Positions 4,696-13,311 of a stretch of 64,000 nucleotides of DNA are shown here, in pieces. How positions within the stretch are numbered: position 1 is the first letter of the stretch; each line of letters opens with the position of its first letter. The notes under the pieces are model-generated. The model saw only the letters and a program-made list of their open reading frames with translations, was not told the origin of the DNA and made no database searches. Location: NCBI GenBank assembly GCA_031292515.1, contig JARLGZ010000054.1, positions 62,001 to 126,000 of the forward strand. The letters run 5' to 3'. This DNA comes from Puia sp. (GTDB lineage: Bacteria; Bacteroidota; Bacteroidia; Chitinophagales; Chitinophagaceae). The position numbers and the translations under genes were made by a program.

Positions 4696-4748
4696 ATCAA
4701 ACGGGAGCCTGTATCAATCAAACAGGAACCTGACCTGAATCAAACATG
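4679..4748 (+). repeat. Degenerate direct repeats across the sigma-gene stop codon
   Basis: Three imperfect copies of an ATCAAAC-GGGAGCCTG / CAGGAACCTG unit run from the last codons of the sigma-like gene through its stop to the ATG of the next gene. Confidence 0.6.
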
Positions 4749-5237
4749 AACATCGAAAAATATATAGAGACCGGGATCATCGAGGCCTATGTGATGGGGT
4801 TGGCCGACCATTCGGAGAGACGGGAGTTCGAACGGATCCTGCCGACTTCTCCGGATCTGCAGCAGGCCCTGCTCAATTTCGAGTTGAAAATCGAGGGGTT
4901 GGCCATGCGTCATTCTTCTCCGCCCCCTCCCGGGACCTGGGAACTGATACAGGACCGCATCCGTGAATTGCCGGCTATCAGGCCTCCGGCGAAGGAAAGA
5001 CAGGCGGGGTCGCAGAATGGGAATGGCGGGGGGACGCCTGAGGAATTCATCTCCATACAAGCGATTTCCTCCACCCATATAAAGATCCACAAACATTGGA
5101 AGACGGCTTTCATCACGGTCTTTATCCTCTCCAAGATATTCCTGGCCCTGGCCATTTATTTCTTCGTTGAATACCGGCACGCCCAAAAGGATATCCGGCA
5201 GTTGCAGGAGCAGGTCGATAAGGTCCCGGCCAAATAA
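4746..5237 (+). CDS. Anti-sigma-factor-like membrane protein
   Basis: 163 residues. The N-terminal part (about 1-75; MNIEKYIETGIIEAYVMGLA, then SERREFERILPTSPDLQQAL) matches the cytoplasmic anti-sigma start of Bacteroidota RskA-like proteins, where YVLG/YVMGLA and the E-R-E-F-E motif are common. A Pro/Gly-rich linker, one membrane helix (AFITVFILSKIFLALAIYFFV, about 118-138) and a short coiled coil (HAQKDIRQLQEQVDKV) follow. It lies 50 bases after the sigma-like gene. No RskA outer domain is present, so the extracytoplasmic sensor part is minimal. Confidence 0.6.
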   Translation: MNIEKYIETGIIEAYVMGLADHSERREFERILPTSPDLQQALLNFELKIEGLAMRHSSPPPPGTWELIQDRIRELPAIRPPAKERQAGSQNGNGGGTPEEFISIQAISSTHIKIHKHWKTAFITVFILSKIFLALAIYFFVEYRHAQKDIRQLQEQVDKVPAK

Positions 5238-5240
5238 AAT

Positions 5241-5272
5241 TTTGGAGATATACCCGTCCTCGATTAATTTTG
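5241..5272 (+). promoter_or_regulatory. his operon promoter (TTTG-N20-TAATTTTG)
   Basis: TTTG at 5241-5244 and TAATTTTG at 5265-5272 match the Bacteroidota -33/-7 consensus (TTTG, TAnnTTTG) with 20-base spacing. The predicted start of transcription is about 5278-5281, only a few bases before the leader ATG at 5283. Confidence 0.7.
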
Positions 5273-5282
5273 TGCCTCATTT

Positions 5283-5333
5283 ATGATTACCAACAGACAT
5301 CATCATCACCATTTTTTCTTGCTACCAGGGTAG
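5283..5333 (+). CDS. hisL: Histidine leader peptide (hisL), 16 residues with five His in a row
   Basis: ATG at 5283, stop TAG at 5331; the peptide reads MITNRHHHHHFFLLPG. The five consecutive His codons (5298-5312: CAT CAT CAT CAC CAT) would stall ribosomes when charged tRNA-His is scarce. The stop codon lies within the antiterminator strand GGTAGGCC (5329-5336). A promoter-like box ends 10 bases before the ATG, so translation must begin nearly leaderless. The peptide is directly followed by an attenuator and hisG. Classic leader-peptide attenuation is known for enteric his operons; its assignment here rests on the sequence. Confidence 0.88.
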   Translation: MITNRHHHHHFFLLPG

Positions 5334-5393
5334 GCCGGTGATGTTTTGTCTGACAAAATAGAACTAGAAAAAGGGCTTACCGCAAGGTAGGCC
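5322..5393 (+). promoter_or_regulatory. his attenuator: competing RNA structures
   Basis: Four segments are visible. CTAC (5322-5325) can pair with GTAG (5330-5333). GGTAGGCC (5329-5336) can pair over 8 bp with GGGCTTACC (5374-5381 used). That last segment is also the 5' arm of the terminator. The antiterminator strand and the terminator 3' arm (5386-5393) are identical 8-mers, so they compete for the same partner. A ribosome finishing at the TAG would cover 5329-5336 and favour termination; a ribosome stalled on His codons would leave it free. Confidence 0.8.
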
Positions 5394-5403
5394 CTAATTT
5401 TTT
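5372..5403 (+). terminator. his attenuator terminator
   Basis: A 10-bp stem (5372-5381 with 5386-5395, one G-U pair) is closed by a GCAA tetraloop and followed by AA and six T. Confidence 0.9.
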
Positions 5404-5456: not shown

Positions 5457-6311
5457 ATGAAATTAAAAATTGCAATTCAGAAGTCGGGTCGTTTATACGA
5501 GGACTCGGTAAAGCTGCTGAAAGACTGCGGCATCGATCTCAAGAACGGGGTCAACAAGCTAAAGACGGAATCCGACAATTTCCCGATGGAGATCTATTTT
5601 CTCAGGGATGACGATATCCCCCAGTATGTGGAAGACGCGGTGGCCGACATCGGGATCGTCGGAGAGAATGTGCTGCTGGAAAAGAACAAAAAAGCGGAGA
5701 TCGTCGAACAGCTCGGTTTTGGCAAATGCCGCTTATCGGTGGCAGTGGGCAGGGGAGAAAAATACGATGGCGTGCAGTTCCTGGAAGGGAAAAAGATCGC
5801 GACGACCTATCCGGTGCTGGTACAGCGCTACCTCGACACCCATAAGATCAACGCCGAGATCCATGAGATCAGCGGTTCTGTGGAGATAGCGCCGGGCATC
5901 GGGCTGGCCGATGCAATCGTCGACCTGGTCAGCAGCGGGTCCACGCTCTTTATGAATGGCCTCAAAGAAGTCGAGACAGTGCTGAAATCACAGGCCGTAC
6001 TCATCCGAAACGCCCAATTGGGCGCCGCGCAGCAGGAGATCCTGGACAAGCTGCTTTTCCGTATCCGTGCTGTGAAGAAGGCGAGGAACAACAAGTACGT
6101 CCTGCTGAACGCTCCCAACGACCAGTTGGAAGAGATCATCCGGTTGCTGCCAGGCATGAAGAGTCCGACGGTATTGCCTTTGGCCGAACCGGGGTGGAGC
6201 AGCGTACATAGCGTGCTGAGTGAAAATGAATTCTGGGATATCATCGAGAAATTGAAATCGGCGGGCGCCCAGGGCATCCTCGTGGTGCCGATCGAGAAAA
6301 TGATTATATGA
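5457..6311 (+). CDS. hisG: ATP phosphoribosyltransferase
   Basis: Catalyses the first, committed step of histidine synthesis: ATP + PRPP to phosphoribosyl-ATP. At 284 residues it is the long form. The catalytic type-II PBP-like fold begins LKIAIQKSGRLYEDSVKLLKD. The PRPP loop is in IVDLVSSGSTLFMNGL (about residues 157-172). The C-terminal about 75 residues form the ACT-like regulatory domain (LNAPNDQLEEIIRLLPGMKSP, ILVVPIEKMI) used for feedback inhibition by histidine in long-form enzymes. It is the first structural gene after the leader-peptide attenuator. Its stop TGA starts a short direct repeat (TGAcAAGGAAG, 6309-6345). Confidence 0.96.
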   Translation: MKLKIAIQKSGRLYEDSVKLLKDCGIDLKNGVNKLKTESDNFPMEIYFLRDDDIPQYVEDAVADIGIVGENVLLEKNKKAEIVEQLGFGKCRLSVAVGRGEKYDGVQFLEGKKIATTYPVLVQRYLDTHKINAEIHEISGSVEIAPGIGLADAIVDLVSSGSTLFMNGLKEVETVLKSQAVLIRNAQLGAAQQEILDKLLFRIRAVKKARNNKYVLLNAPNDQLEEIIRLLPGMKSPTVLPLAEPGWSSVHSVLSENEFWDIIEKLKSAGAQGILVVPIEKMII

Positions 6312-6358: not shown

Positions 6359-7645
6359 ATGAAGATCATCGATATAAGAAATATCCACGTGGCTCCCGGA
6401 CTGCTCTCCCGGCCTGTCCTGGACAACCGTTCCCTGGAGCTGTCGGTGGCGAATATCCTCAAAGAGGTGAGGGACAACGGCGATGAAGCGGTGAAGAGGT
6501 TTTCCCTGATGTTCGACAAGGCTGCCGTGGATCACCTGGAGGTCAGTTCCGCGGAGATCAGCGCTGCCGCCGCTCAAATAAGCCCGGAACTGAAAGCGGC
6601 CATTCAACAGGCCGGAAAAAATATCCGGGTCTTTCATGAGAGCCAGCTTTATAAAGAGGCTCCGATCGAAACGATGCCGGGCGTTTTTTGCTGGCGCAGG
6701 ACGGTAGCCATCGAAAAAGTAGGACTATACATCCCGGGAGGAACGGCTCCCTTGTTCTCTACACTGCTCATGCTCGGTATCCCTGCTTCGATCGCGGGTT
6801 GCAAGGAGATCATCCTGTGTTCGCCGCCCGATGCGAAGGGCAATCTGCACCCGGCGATCCTGTTCGCAGCATCGGTGGTAGGAGTGACGAAGATCTTCAA
6901 GGCCGGCGGTGTACAGGCCATAGCCGCTATGGCTTATGGCACGGCTTCCATACCCCGTGTATACAAGATATTTGGTCCCGGTAATCAATACGTCACTTGC
7001 GCAAAGCAACTGGTTCAAAAAGACGGTGTGGCGATCGACATGCCTGCCGGCCCCAGCGAAGTGGCCGTCTTTGCGGACGACACGGCCAATCCGTCATTTG
7101 TGGCCGCGGACCTCTTGTCACAGGCCGAGCATGGACCGGATAGCCAGGTCATCCTGGTAAGTTCTTCGGCTTTGATGGTAGACAGCATATTGAAGGCGCT
7201 GGCCGGTCAGCTCGAAGAACTGCCCCGCAGGGATATTGCGCGGAAGGCGCTGGAAAACAGCCGCGCATTCCTTGTAGATGGCCGCCGTGAAGCAATGGAC
7301 CTGCTGAATGAATATGCACCGGAGCATCTTATTTTGGCCTGCGGGGATCCCGAAGAACTCGCCGGGCAGGTAGTCAACGCCGGATCCGTCTTTCTCGGCC
7401 ATTTTTCGCCCGAGAGTGTCGGAGACTATGCCAGCGGTACGAACCACACCCTGCCTACCAATGGATATGCCCGGGCTTACTCCGGTGTCAGCGTGGATAG
7501 TTTCGTCAGGAAGATCACCTTCCAGCAACTGACAAAGCAGGGGCTGCTGGGTATCGGCAAGACAGTAGAACTCATGGCGGAGGCGGAAGGGCTGCAGGCC
7601 CATGCGAACGCGGTAAAACTGAGGAGGGAAAGTAGTGAGTGGTGA
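6359..7645 (+). CDS. hisD: Histidinol dehydrogenase
   Basis: Performs the last two steps of histidine synthesis, L-histidinol to L-histidinal to L-histidine, with NAD+ and zinc. 428 residues, full length. Family signatures are seen: GLYIPGGTAPLFSTLLML, GPGNQYVTCAKQLV, DMPAGPSEVAVFAD, DLLSQAEHGPDSQ and the catalytic/zinc region NEYAPEHL plus GDYASGTNHTLPT. It lies 47 bases after hisG. The stop codon falls inside a repeat array. Confidence 0.97.
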   Translation: MKIIDIRNIHVAPGLLSRPVLDNRSLELSVANILKEVRDNGDEAVKRFSLMFDKAAVDHLEVSSAEISAAAAQISPELKAAIQQAGKNIRVFHESQLYKEAPIETMPGVFCWRRTVAIEKVGLYIPGGTAPLFSTLLMLGIPASIAGCKEIILCSPPDAKGNLHPAILFAASVVGVTKIFKAGGVQAIAAMAYGTASIPRVYKIFGPGNQYVTCAKQLVQKDGVAIDMPAGPSEVAVFADDTANPSFVAADLLSQAEHGPDSQVILVSSSALMVDSILKALAGQLEELPRRDIARKALENSRAFLVDGRREAMDLLNEYAPEHLILACGDPEELAGQVVNAGSVFLGHFSPESVGDYASGTNHTLPTNGYARAYSGVSVDSFVRKITFQQLTKQGLLGIGKTVELMAEAEGLQAHANAVKLRRESSEW

Positions 7646-7688: not shown

Positions 7689-7798
7689 AGGCCCTTCCGG
7701 CGGGATGCTCAGTAGATAATGAGTGACGGATATTGACAGAATTTGCCGGGCGGTAATGGCAGATACAAAAAATATAGGTAGTTTAAATTTTGAATACG

Positions 7799-8848
7799 AT
7801 GTTTAAGGTTGAAGAATTGTTGAGACCCAATATCCGGCAGCTGGTTCCTTATTCCTCCGCCAGGGACGAGTTCAAAGGCGAAGCGCAGGTATTCCTGGAC
7901 GCGAATGAGAACAGTCTCGGTTCGCCCCTTACGAGGTGGTATAACCGCTACCCGGACCCTTTGCAGGCGAAGGTCAAGCAGGCGCTCAGCCAGATAAAAG
8001 GCGTCCCACCGGAACACATTTTCCTGGGCAATGGCAGTGATGAATGCATCGATATCCTGTTTCGCGCGTTTTGCAACCCCGGAAAGGACAATGTGATCAT
8101 CAATCCGCCTACCTATGGGATGTATGAGGTTAGCGCGCACATAAACGATATCGAGGTCCGACGGGCGGTATTGCAGGATGATTTTCAGCTTGACCTGGTG
8201 CATCTCGAGAACCTGGTGGATGAGAATACCAAGATCATCTGGATCTGTTCGCCGAACAACCCCACTGCCAATTCCATGAACCGGGAGGACGTCGAGATCG
8301 TGCTAAACAATTTTGCCGGGCTGGTAGTGGTCGATGAGGCTTATATCAATTTCTCGCGTCATAAATCCTTTATCCAGGAGCTGAAGGATTATCCGAACCT
8401 TGTCGTGTTGCAGACGCTTAGCAAGGCCTGGGGCCTCGCGGGCCTCCGTCTCGGTATGGCTTTTGCAAGTACGGCCATCATAGATGTCTATAACAAGGTC
8501 AAACCGCCCTATAATATCAGCCAGGCCACCCAGGAACTGGTCCTGCAGGCGCTGGGCGAAGTAGAGCAGGTAAATGAGATGATCCGGATATTGGTGTCGC
8601 AGCGGGAGCAATTGGCCAAAGACCTTGCCGCCTTGCCGCTTGTGTCAAAGATCTATCATTCCGACGCTAATTTTCTGCTGGTCAAAGTGTCGGATGCAAG
8701 AAGGGTCTACGATTATCTCCTGGAACAGGGCATCGTCGTCAGGGATCGCAGTAAAGTGGAACTTTGTGAAGGCTGCCTGCGGATTACCGTCGGCACTGAA
8801 AGGGAAAATAAGGATTTGATAGCATCCCTGAAGCAGTTTCTATCATAA
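7799..8848 (+). CDS. hisC: Histidinol-phosphate aminotransferase
   Basis: A PLP-dependent class I/II aminotransferase converting imidazole-acetol phosphate to histidinol phosphate. 349 residues. Visible features: substrate loop VFLDANENSLGSP, GNGSDECIDILFRAF, SPNNPTANSMN, VVDEAYINFS and the PLP-lysine segment LQTLSKAWGLAGLRLGMAF, and RVYDYLLEQGIVVRDRS near the end. I use the ATG at 7799; a TTG nine bases upstream is in frame but less likely. It lies about 150 bases after hisD, across the repeat. Confidence 0.96.
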   Translation: MFKVEELLRPNIRQLVPYSSARDEFKGEAQVFLDANENSLGSPLTRWYNRYPDPLQAKVKQALSQIKGVPPEHIFLGNGSDECIDILFRAFCNPGKDNVIINPPTYGMYEVSAHINDIEVRRAVLQDDFQLDLVHLENLVDENTKIIWICSPNNPTANSMNREDVEIVLNNFAGLVVVDEAYINFSRHKSFIQELKDYPNLVVLQTLSKAWGLAGLRLGMAFASTAIIDVYNKVKPPYNISQATQELVLQALGEVEQVNEMIRILVSQREQLAKDLAALPLVSKIYHSDANFLLVKVSDARRVYDYLLEQGIVVRDRSKVELCEGCLRITVGTERENKDLIASLKQFLS

Positions 8849-8895: not shown

Positions 8896-10230
8896 ATGAA
8901 AAAGTTTTTAGCGAACTTTCTCCCGGTGAGAGCAGCCTGGCTCATTTTGTGCGGCTGTATACTGGCCTTTAGCGCCTGTGCCGGAGACGCCGCCAGGGAT
9001 ACTTCAAAAGTGGCCACAGCCGCTGACAATGGTTCAGGTACCGGCGCACCCAACGACGACGGTTTGATCCTGCCTGCTGGGTTTACGGTAACGACTTTTG
9101 CGGAAGGCCTCGGAAAGGCCAGGCATATCGCCGTCGCCCCAGACGGGACTGTGTTTGTAAAACTCGCCAAATTGAAAGACGGCAAAGGCATCTATCGTCT
9201 CCGGGATACCAATGGAGACGGCAAGGCCGATGCGATAACCGGCTTCGGCAGCTTTACAGGAACGGGTATGACGGTGAGAAGCGGATACCTCTATGCGTCT
9301 TCCGATGAAGAAGTGTTTCGCTATAAGCTGGACGATAAAAATAATGTCGTGAACCCGGACCAGCCGGAGAAGATCGTCACCGGGCTCCTCTCGCGCGGAG
9401 AGCACGAGGCAAAAGCCATCACCCTCGACTATGATGGCAACCTCTATGTGAATATCGGCGCTTATTCGAATGCCTGCCAGGTGCAGGACCGGACCAAAGG
9501 GTCGCCGGGCATGAGACCTTGTCCGATCCTGGATTCCGCCGGTGGTATCTGGAAATTCAAAGCCGATAAGCCAGGTCAGACCTATGGAGACGGAGTCCGT
9601 TATGCGACGGGTTTGCGCAATGTGGTAGGACTGGACTGGAACAAGGCTACCAACAGCCTGTTCGTCATGCAGCACGGTCGCGACCAGTTGCACGACCTGT
9701 TTCCGGATATGTACGATCAGAAGCAGAGCGCCGAATTGCCTGCCGAGTGTATGTATGAGTTGCATCAGGGATCGAACGGCGGCTGGCCATATATTTATTA
9801 CGATGAGTTCCAGAAAAAGAAGATCCTGGCCCCGGAATTCGGAGGAGATGGCAAGAAGACTGCCGGCGAAGATGCGCAAGATCCCGTGATGGCATTTCCG
9901 GGGCACCTGGCTCCCAACGGATTGCTGTTCTATACCGGCGACCAGTTTCCTGCGAAATATAAGAATGGCGCTTTTATCGCCTTTCATGGCTCCTGGAACA
10001 GGGCGCCCGAACCCCAGAAAGGATTCTTTGTGGTCTTTGTTCCTTTTCAAAATGGCAAGCCCTCCGGCGACTGGGAAGTATTTGCCGACAATTTCTCCGG
10101 CAGCCCGGCGTTAACGGCTTCCGGCCGCGCGCAGCATCGTCCCTGCGGCCTCGCCCAGGCGCCCGATGGCTCGATCTATGTCACAGACGACTCGAAGGGA
10201 ACGATCTGGAAGATCTCCTATAAGAAATAA
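8896..10230 (+). CDS. Lipoprotein sugar dehydrogenase (PQQ-dependent, sorbosone-dehydrogenase-like beta-propeller)
   Basis: 444 residues with a lipoprotein signal (LAFSAC, Cys about 28). A six-bladed propeller follows, with repeated IAVAPDGTVFV, LDYDGNLYVNIG, GLRNVVGLDWN, LAPNGLLFYTGDQFP and LAQAPDGSIYVTDDSKGTIWKI. This is the layout of soluble glucose/L-sorbosone dehydrogenases, which oxidise aldoses using PQQ. Two Cys (CQVQ, PCPI) may form a disulfide. It sits between hisC and hisB together with a cytochrome c, the likely electron acceptor, although neither belongs to histidine synthesis. Substrate not predictable. Confidence 0.82.
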   Translation: MKKFLANFLPVRAAWLILCGCILAFSACAGDAARDTSKVATAADNGSGTGAPNDDGLILPAGFTVTTFAEGLGKARHIAVAPDGTVFVKLAKLKDGKGIYRLRDTNGDGKADAITGFGSFTGTGMTVRSGYLYASSDEEVFRYKLDDKNNVVNPDQPEKIVTGLLSRGEHEAKAITLDYDGNLYVNIGAYSNACQVQDRTKGSPGMRPCPILDSAGGIWKFKADKPGQTYGDGVRYATGLRNVVGLDWNKATNSLFVMQHGRDQLHDLFPDMYDQKQSAELPAECMYELHQGSNGGWPYIYYDEFQKKKILAPEFGGDGKKTAGEDAQDPVMAFPGHLAPNGLLFYTGDQFPAKYKNGAFIAFHGSWNRAPEPQKGFFVVFVPFQNGKPSGDWEVFADNFSGSPALTASGRAQHRPCGLAQAPDGSIYVTDDSKGTIWKISYKK

Positions 10231-10276: not shown

Positions 10277-10783
10277 ATGATCGGAAAATGGACTGTGCTT
10301 TGTTCTATGGCAGGTTTGCTATCAGCCTGCGCGCTATTATCCATGACTGCAAAAGATGACGCCCCGCGCCGGCCATACGGAGTCTTACAGAACGCGACGG
10401 GTATAAAGCAGCATACGACAGGTGTAAAGCAGAACGTCACGGGTATAAAGGCGTCCATCGAGCGGGGAAAAAAAGTATACGCGGAGCAATGCCTCTCCTG
10501 TCATCAGGTCGATGCCATGGGCGTGTCCGGCATGACGCCTCCGCTTGTAAAGACCAAATGGGTATTGGGCGACAAGACGACGCTGGTGCAAATTGTGCTG
10601 AAAGGCCTGACGGGGGAGATCGAAATCGACGGAGATACCTATCATAATGTGATGGCTCCTCACAGCGAACTCAGCAACCAGCAGATAGCGGACGTGCTCA
10701 CCTATGTAAGGAGCAGCTTCGGCAACAAGGCAAGGGCGATTACCCCGGCGGAAGTTGCAGCGATACGGGCGAAGACTAAATAA
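10277..10783 (+). CDS. Exported c-type cytochrome
   Basis: 168 residues. An N-terminal signal (MIGKWTVLCSMAGLLSACALL; SAC could be a lipobox) is followed by a linker with a threefold repeat (ATGIKQHTTGVKQNVTGIK). The single-haem cytochrome c domain has CLSCH (haem attachment), and VMAPHSELS supplies the axial Met. It starts 46 bases after the sugar dehydrogenase, so it probably accepts its electrons and passes them to the respiratory chain. The repeat linker looks like a recent tandem duplication (24-base units). Confidence 0.88.
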   Translation: MIGKWTVLCSMAGLLSACALLSMTAKDDAPRRPYGVLQNATGIKQHTTGVKQNVTGIKASIERGKKVYAEQCLSCHQVDAMGVSGMTPPLVKTKWVLGDKTTLVQIVLKGLTGEIEIDGDTYHNVMAPHSELSNQQIADVLTYVRSSFGNKARAITPAEVAAIRAKTK

Positions 10784-13192: not shown

Positions 13193-13255
13193 ATGAACAA
13201 TCAATTTGTAAGTAAAGTGTGGTGGTGGCATACAAACTCCGAGCGGGGCAAGTAA
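13193..13255 (+). CDS. trpL: Tryptophan leader peptide (trpL), 20 residues with three Trp in a row
   Basis: ATG at 13193, TAA at 13253. The peptide begins MNNQFVSKV, then WWW (codons 13220-13228), then HTNSERGK. Three tandem Trp codons, a stop close to a GC-rich antiterminator strand, and a strong terminator 28 bases further on before trpE are the layout of a trp attenuator. The promoter-like box ends only 7 bases before the ATG, so, like hisL, it should be translated almost leaderless. Confidence 0.85.
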   Translation: MNNQFVSKVWWWHTNSERGK

Positions 13256-13302
13256 TGCTATTGTTGCATCATTACCATATTGGGCCCCCGAGAATCGGGG
13301 GC
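13237..13302 (+). promoter_or_regulatory. trp attenuator: competing RNA structures
   Basis: CTCC (13237-13240) can pair with GGGG (13245-13248). GGGGC (13245-13249) can instead pair with GCCCC (13284-13288), the 5' arm of the terminator. The order of elements is the same as at his: control codons, protector, antiterminator overlapping the leader end, terminator. The antiterminator helix is short (5 bp, all G-C). Confidence 0.65.
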
Positions 13303-13311
13303 TTTTTTTTT
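13284..13311 (+). terminator. trp attenuator terminator
   Basis: GCCCCCG (13284-13290), loop AGAAT, CGGGGGC (13296-13302), then nine T. Confidence 0.9.

Follow-up and report, generated by a model that had tools for sequence, protein, structure and literature searches.

A putative histidine leader-peptide attenuator with a near-leaderless layout upstream of hisG in Puia sp. (Chitinophagaceae)

The hisG locus and its leader region

The DNA analysed here, which will be referred to as the window, is a stretch of 64,000 nucleotides from Puia sp. and carries a group of histidine biosynthesis genes; all window features described below are located on its forward strand. The first gene behind the presumed switch, hisG (5457-6311), was identified with TIGR00070 (193.5 bits versus a cut-off of 75.75) and is followed by hisD (6359-7645; TIGR00069, 525.7 bits) and hisC (7790-8848; TIGR01141, 366.2 bits), both presumably under joint control with hisG. 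The hisB gene comes after two non-his genes located between hisC and hisB. These two genes (8896-10230 and 10277-10783, same strand) match heme-binding or cytochrome c families of NCBIfam only weakly, with scores below cut-off. Upstream of hisG, an open reading frame (ORF; 4746-5237) ends 3 bases 5′ of a Bacteroidota-type promoter, which was read from the sequence as a −33 element TTTG (5241-5244) and, 20 bases from it, a −7 element TAATTTTG (5265-5272). A ten-base stretch (5273-5282) separates the −7 element from the ATG of a short leader ORF at 5283; the preliminary description of this DNA, which had placed the end of the promoter 10 bases 5′ of this ATG, is exact to the base.

The leader ORF MITNRHHHHHFFLLPG (5283-5333), recognised by its sequence and conservation and putatively translated, comprises 16 sense codons and the stop codon TAG (5331-5333). 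Five consecutive His codons (CAT CAT CAT CAC CAT, 5298-5312) are present exactly as described before and would represent the sensor, the amino acid they encode being the product of the operon. Behind the His codons follow the segments of the predicted switch. Segment a, CTACC (5322-5326), reads CTTACC or CTTGCC in most aligned relatives. Segment b, GGTAGGCC (5329-5336), the 5′ strand of the predicted antiterminator, contains the leader stop codon. Segment c, AGGGCTTACC (5372-5381), would serve both as 5′ arm of the terminator and as 3′ strand of the antiterminator, and is followed by the loop GCAA (5382-5385), segment d, GGTAGGCCCT (5386-5395), the terminator 3′ arm, and a run of six T (5398-5403). 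Thus, an intrinsic terminator is present between the leader and hisG, ending 53 bases 5′ of the hisG ATG. The 10-bp stem, the GCAA loop and the six T of the preliminary description were confirmed, and the antiterminator 8-mer is indeed identical to bases 1-8 of the terminator 3′ arm; to be added are the two A that separate the stem from the T-run. Further segments beyond that description are CTACC and two stretches of leader codons that match the region behind the stop codon (CATCACC:GGTGATG and CAGACA:TGTCTG). CATCACC (5304-5310) lies within the His codons and is able to pair with GGTGATG (5337-5343), the beginning of a candidate protector hairpin strand GGTGATG...TGTCTG (5337-5352) that was derived from the ribosome-free fold of this one sequence.

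Folding predictions were made for three parts of the region. The fold of 5371-5402 alone is the terminator (−18.8 kcal/mol, z −4.6). For 5323-5381, representing the RNA before the 3′ arm exists, the fold combines GGUAGGCC:GGCUUACC with an inner hairpin (−18.3 kcal/mol, z −2.7), and for 5278-5402 it consists of the terminator together with a hairpin of CAGACA/CATCACC with TGTCTG/GGTGATG (−40.4 kcal/mol, z −5.0). These three folds indicate that the segments can pair in two ways, as is likewise the case in the enteric his leader. Segment c is the strand common to both structures, and since b holds the stop codon, the geometry would place b under a ribosome located at the stop. In the window alone, pairing of b with c was only modestly better than in shuffled sequences (p 0.035), and for a with b only about 4 bp are sterically possible.

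Conservation within the family and across the phylum

To the best 80 of 276 hisG relatives from one scan the window was added, resulting in 81 loci. A short ORF with at least three consecutive His at most 400 bases 5′ of hisG was found in 69 of the 80 relatives. With a looser criterion (three His in six residues), a leader was scored in 75 of the 81 loci, window included, and a terminator in all 75. One of the six loci without a scored leader (L013) begins 42 bases 5′ of hisG, and two (L024, L029) have kept arms and terminator and failed the ORF criterion. In the remaining three (L038, L039, L078), hisG is located close behind another gene with a similar gene end, NLEVGLL(I/L)NFG....

A covariance model (R1) was built from the 75 sequences and searched in 147 genomes of the family. 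Matches at E 0.001 were obtained in 130 of the 147, many of the weak ones not being his leaders. hisG was found in 113 genomes, and in 104 of these the matches listed include one on the same strand and no farther than 504 bases upstream of the hisG domain. The proposal that related genomes carry a His-run leader plus terminator 5′ of hisG thus holds for 75/81 loci and 104/113 genomes. Of the nine remaining hisG-bearing genomes, one (G224) has a match at a contig end, and in one (G186) the sequence upstream of hisG is only 24 bases long. The other seven are readable: three contain a leader (LHHHHFHT...) resembling that of another family, f5, together with a terminator of CCCGTTTGAG or CCCGTCTGAG type, one has a shortened leader (MKRSHHTHLFAET), one (L222) has a His-rich ORF far upstream only, and two have none. 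The three loci with a leader and terminator of f5 type (L223, L227, L228) belong to the window's family, suggesting that hisG may have been transferred there together with its attenuator. Among the matches listed for family genomes without hisG in the 147-genome set, none exceeded 55 bits. In the genome of the window itself, R1 gave a single strong match, the window locus (102.5 bits). Of five weaker matches (E up to 1), one is the reverse strand of the window locus, and the best of the others (33.3 bits) is the asd leader described below; the pattern CAYCAYCAYCAY occurs at 64 places in this genome.

Across the phylum, hisG was present in 138 of 158 Bacteroidota genomes. The upstream regions of 80 of the 138, one to three per genus, were examined, the window's own genome being among the other 58. 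A His-rich short ORF 5′ of hisG was detected in 56 of these regions, namely in all 30 of the window's class (seven families) and in 26 of 50 outside this class (f14 9/9, f21 10/10, f32 3/3, f19 2/2, f27 1/2, f22 1/1); the remaining 23 outside-class regions contained none by the same criterion. Controls were taken from the window and from the leader loci themselves. Short ORFs with at least three His in six residues were found in 4 of 211 control segments of 600 bases (window, both strands), and none of the 211 contained one with a run of at least four His. Such a run is present in 77 of the 131 loci scored as leaders (75 + 56) versus 0 of their 131 reverse complements, showing that the His-rich leader is not a product of chance. 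The loosest criterion was passed by 6 of the 131 reverse complements, which is why the single cases and f19 could be due to chance.

Twenty-one of the 131 leaders lack a strong intrinsic terminator by the criterion used (f21 10, f3 5, f8 2, f19 2, f5 1, f9 1). These include all ten f21 leaders and all five of f3 (L089-L092, L157). In three of the f3 leaders (L090, L092, L157), visual inspection reveals a weak hairpin, rich in A/T and with T's, which was excluded by this criterion. The stretch behind the f21 leader is unstructured with 25% C and 8% G, and several f21 leaders have a GTG start; these properties make Rho-dependent control possible in f21.

The promoter arrangement was analysed in 80 own-family leaders, comprising the window, 74 loci from the hisG scan and five regions of the phylum set, with the in-frame ATG nearest to the −7 box taken as start codon. 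An exact −7 box TAnnTTTG ending 3-12 bases 5′ of the start codon was found in 65 of the 80 versus 7 of 2,099 ATGs of the window, and with one mismatch allowed in 71 of 80 versus 85 of 2,099; the median distance in the family is 9. A −33 TTTG is located 17-22 bases 5′ of the exact box in 68 of the 73 family leaders having this box, and at the same spacing in 2 of 22 exact boxes anywhere in the window. These data support the proposed near-leaderless layout as conserved within the window's family. In other families the median distance is 5 (f21), 9 (f8), 17 (f5) and 21 (f14), and the different values of f5 and f14 indicate that the layout is not phylum-wide. From the position of the promoter, the transcript is expected to start near 5276-5279, a few bases 5′ of the ATG; with 4-12 bases between box and ATG in most family leaders, the untranslated stretch may range from zero to several bases. 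In Flavobacterium psychrophilum, leaderless transcripts are reported to make up 5.5% of the mRNAs examined (PMC9723704).

Covariation was evaluated in an alignment of 75 family elements. In the terminator helix c:d, 99.3% of cells are paired, and the compensatory changes sought there are present with 44 double-change cells versus 10.6 in shuffles (0/500). For the antiterminator helix b:c, 97.5% of cells are paired with 8 double-change cells versus 2.4, and the number of covarying pairs was reached by 166 of 500 shuffles, that is, it is not unusual. Since one strand must fit two partners, few changes are to be expected in b:c; the signal within the family is nevertheless weak. No covariation was detected for a:b in the 75 aligned elements, in which 93.3% of cells are paired. 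Other families have b and c strands with different letters that still pair (CTCAAGCG:CGTTTGAG, GCGCCGG:CCGGCGC and GCAGGTAG:CTACCTGT). The stop-codon region was compared with the terminator 5′ arm across families in the 110 loci that have both a leader and a terminator. The median length of the best duplex was 8 bp in the window's family (p < 0.05 versus shuffles in 69/80), 8.5 bp in f5 (10/10) and 6 bp in f14 (6/9), and the same significance level was found in 4 of 11 loci of the small families f2, f4, f8, f22, f27 and f32. A locus's own duplex was better than 95% of other-family arms in 8/10 cases for f5 and 7/9 for f14, and in only 31/80 for the own family. A search for covariation in the two 8-mers had been suggested; across families, pairing is mostly kept with other letters, whereas the b:c signal within the family is weaker. 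Judged from these sequences, cross-family pairing is the better evidence for the predicted antiterminator.

The proposed switch and its alternatives

We propose that the element acts on hisG and the genes behind it as a ribosome-mediated transcription attenuator controlled by charged tRNA-His, a reading to which we assign a probability of roughly 0.92. The conserved leaders and terminators, the covariation of c:d and the pairing of b with c across families all support control by charged tRNA-His, as originally suggested; stalling, coupling and readthrough are modelled on the known enteric case. Transcription would start a few bases 5′ of the leader ATG, and a ribosome would follow the polymerase into the 16-codon leader. 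With charged tRNA-His scarce, it would stall on the five His codons, its footprint extending no further than the first base of segment a and leaving b (GGTAGGCC) free. Free b might then pair with c (GGCTTACC) before d is made, allowing the polymerase to continue into hisG. If histidine is plentiful, the ribosome would arrive at the stop codon inside b and cover it, c would pair with d, and transcription would end at the T-run. Without a ribosome, the leader codons are predicted to pair with the stretch behind the stop codon, and the terminator would form.

This scheme was evaluated by folding 79 of the 80 family leaders (one lacks a 6-bp duplex) as they would exist before the 3′ arm is made, with the ribosome represented by a 13-base footprint counted from the beginning of the A-site codon. 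When the A site held the first, middle or last His codon, mean b:c pairing exceeded 0.5 in 76, 77 and 77 of 79 leaders, respectively; in ribosome-free folds, 43 of 79 leaders exceeded this value. A ribosome with its A site on the stop codon masks b, and b:c pairing is then zero by construction. In equilibrium folds of the full-length RNA, the terminator exceeded 0.5 in 69 to 79 of the 79 leaders whatever the ribosome state, which rules out a purely thermodynamic switch. The switch would therefore be kinetic, with the decision made during transcription.

The best surviving alternative is translational attenuation, in which the folds hide or free the hisG start and the terminator-like hairpin is incidental. 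Leader-peptide systems in which a hairpin over the ribosome site replaces the terminator have been described (PMC9413887), and two Bacteroidota families have leaders without a strong terminator. The hairpin of the window, however, is a full terminator with 10 bp, −18.8 kcal/mol and T6 that ends 53 bases before the hisG ATG, and all 80 scored own-family leaders are followed by a terminator, which makes this alternative quite unlikely. A slightly smaller chance is left for the His-rich peptide itself being active, for instance in metal binding or as a stable small protein. His runs bind metals, and the Sinorhizobium leader peptide peTrpL has a role in trans (PMC7298713). Against an active peptide, the residues flanking the His run drift among relatives, CTTACC is retained although it is read in two different frames (FLP and TYL), and the position of the stop codon varies (before, inside or behind segment b); the shifted frame over CTTACC and the variable stop position indicate that in this part the RNA, not the peptide, is conserved. 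The trp leaders described below, which carry WWWH in a similar layout, point in the same direction. That the hairpin is simply the terminator of the upstream gene (4746-5237), whose transcripts would stop there as its ORF ends 3 bases 5′ of the −33 element, with a His-rich ORF arisen by chance, is scarcely credible given the conserved promoter between gene and hairpin and a His run that recurs 5′ of hisG in relatives and hardly ever in control segments.

Transcription attenuation by charged tRNA-His thus remains the preferred reading. As such a switch works only if the ribosome follows the polymerase closely, the conserved attenuator would be a ready reporter for coupling. With a promoter so near to the leader, the ribosome would have to load almost at the 5′ end. 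The findings also suggest how much of the phylum may control histidine synthesis.

Sister leaders and comparison with known systems

A second leader is located in the same window 5′ of trpE. The trp leader MNNQFVSKVWWWHTNSERGK (13193-13255) is preceded by a −7-like element CATCTTTG that ends 7 bases 5′ of its ATG, and a strong terminator (13282-13304) with a T-run behind it lies between leader and trpE. A WWWH leader was found in all 21 trp regions analysed (the window and 20 other genomes with a trpE-like gene), and a −7-like box 3-12 bases 5′ of its ATG in 18 of the 21 with one mismatch, exact in 4. By analogy, we consider the WWWH leaders to be a parallel case to the his leader.

A Lys/Thr-rich leader of the KHTKRTKK type with a terminator precedes asd, encoding aspartate-semialdehyde dehydrogenase, in the window's own genome (G000:C137:84794-84903, L212). 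Lys-rich leaders before asd were also among the weaker R1 matches in relatives. Among the asd loci of the family (including L230-L259), an ORF with at least three Lys was located 8-62 bases before a terminator in 21 of 30, whereas the same criterion identified 0 of 13 terminators of the window used as control. In Sinorhizobium, a leader peptide has been proposed for an ORF that contains six Thr and three Lys codons and precedes a gene named aspartate dehydrogenase by the authors (PMC10117765).

Six relatives without hisG (L216-L221) show arms like those of the his switch in combination with a Lys-rich leader. Four of these leaders precede an aminotransferase-like ORF (matches below the NCBIfam cut-offs), the ORF behind another one is presumably an aspartokinase, and the leader of L216, with a TTG start, lies before a different ORF. 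From these sequences it seems that sensor codons were exchanged on one RNA module; because the his model was used to find the six, part of their likeness to the his switch is built into the search. A Lys-rich leader before the aminotransferase as a family-wide rule was rejected, as a terminator was present in only 4 of 24 loci and an ORF with at least three Lys before it in 3, one of which (L264) looks like a gene end.

Taken together, it is conceivable, at somewhat less than even odds for the whole, that near-leaderless leader-peptide attenuators with exchangeable sensor codons form a network in Bacteroidota that has largely gone undescribed. In such a network, the arms CTTACC, GGTAGGC, GGGCTTACC and GGTAAGCCC would be combined with His codons before hisG and, in relatives lacking hisG, with Lys-rich leaders before probable lysine-pathway genes. 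Lys/Thr leaders would act before asd, and the terminator-less leader of f21 would be compatible with control by Rho, the His-codon region forming part of its loading site.

The mechanism itself is textbook knowledge. Within the literature searched, the breadth, the layout and the sister leaders for trp and asd are apparently new; related earlier work is that of Lopatovskaya (2010) and of Vitreschak (2004), the latter reportedly naming Bacteroidetes among the groups with attenuators. In the open-access literature searched, no paper was recognisable as describing a hisG leader element in Chitinophagaceae. The accessible part of a review of his genes in the superphylum mentions attenuation for E. 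coli and Salmonella only (PMC8305728). Outside Proteobacteria, His-leader attenuators are described for Firmicutes (PMC9413887, PMC2965389), the main texts of both papers containing no word beginning with 'bacteroid'. The systems of PMC9413887, whose leader peptides contain runs of three to five His codons and which have a terminator and an antiterminator, resemble the present element as far as their description allows comparison.

Screening of the window and 20 related loci against the Rfam leader families yielded no match at threshold, the only match being a tRNA. With 13.7 bits versus a gathering score of 49 for RF00514 (His_leader), this label was rejected, and the element stands outside that Rfam family. 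It nevertheless shares with the enteric his attenuator a short His-run leader and mutually exclusive antiterminator and terminator structures before the his operon; in E. coli, this leader comprises 18 residues, seven of them consecutive His (PMC3896937). Different from the enteric case are the predicted near-leaderless start behind a TTTG/TAnnTTTG promoter and the stop codon within strand b.

Closest in phylum and gene is a structured 5′ element upstream of hisG in Flavobacteriaceae that was reported from the F. psychrophilum transcriptome, likewise without an Rfam match; the same study reports strong indications that amino-acid operons are preceded by leader-peptide attenuators (PMC9723704). 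Compared with the window, the arms of f5, a family that looks flavobacterial, are different (CTCAAGCG:CGTTTGAG), and its ATG lies farther from the promoter (median 17), the published element being set beside it by its description. Leader ORFs at the 5′ end of the transcript are also reported for the leaderless mRNA rnTrpL of Sinorhizobium meliloti (PMC10117765) and for polycysteine leaderless ORFs acting as attenuators in mycobacteria (cited in PMC13236596), which resemble the his leader of the window in this predicted position but belong to other phyla and involve other amino acids and promoters.
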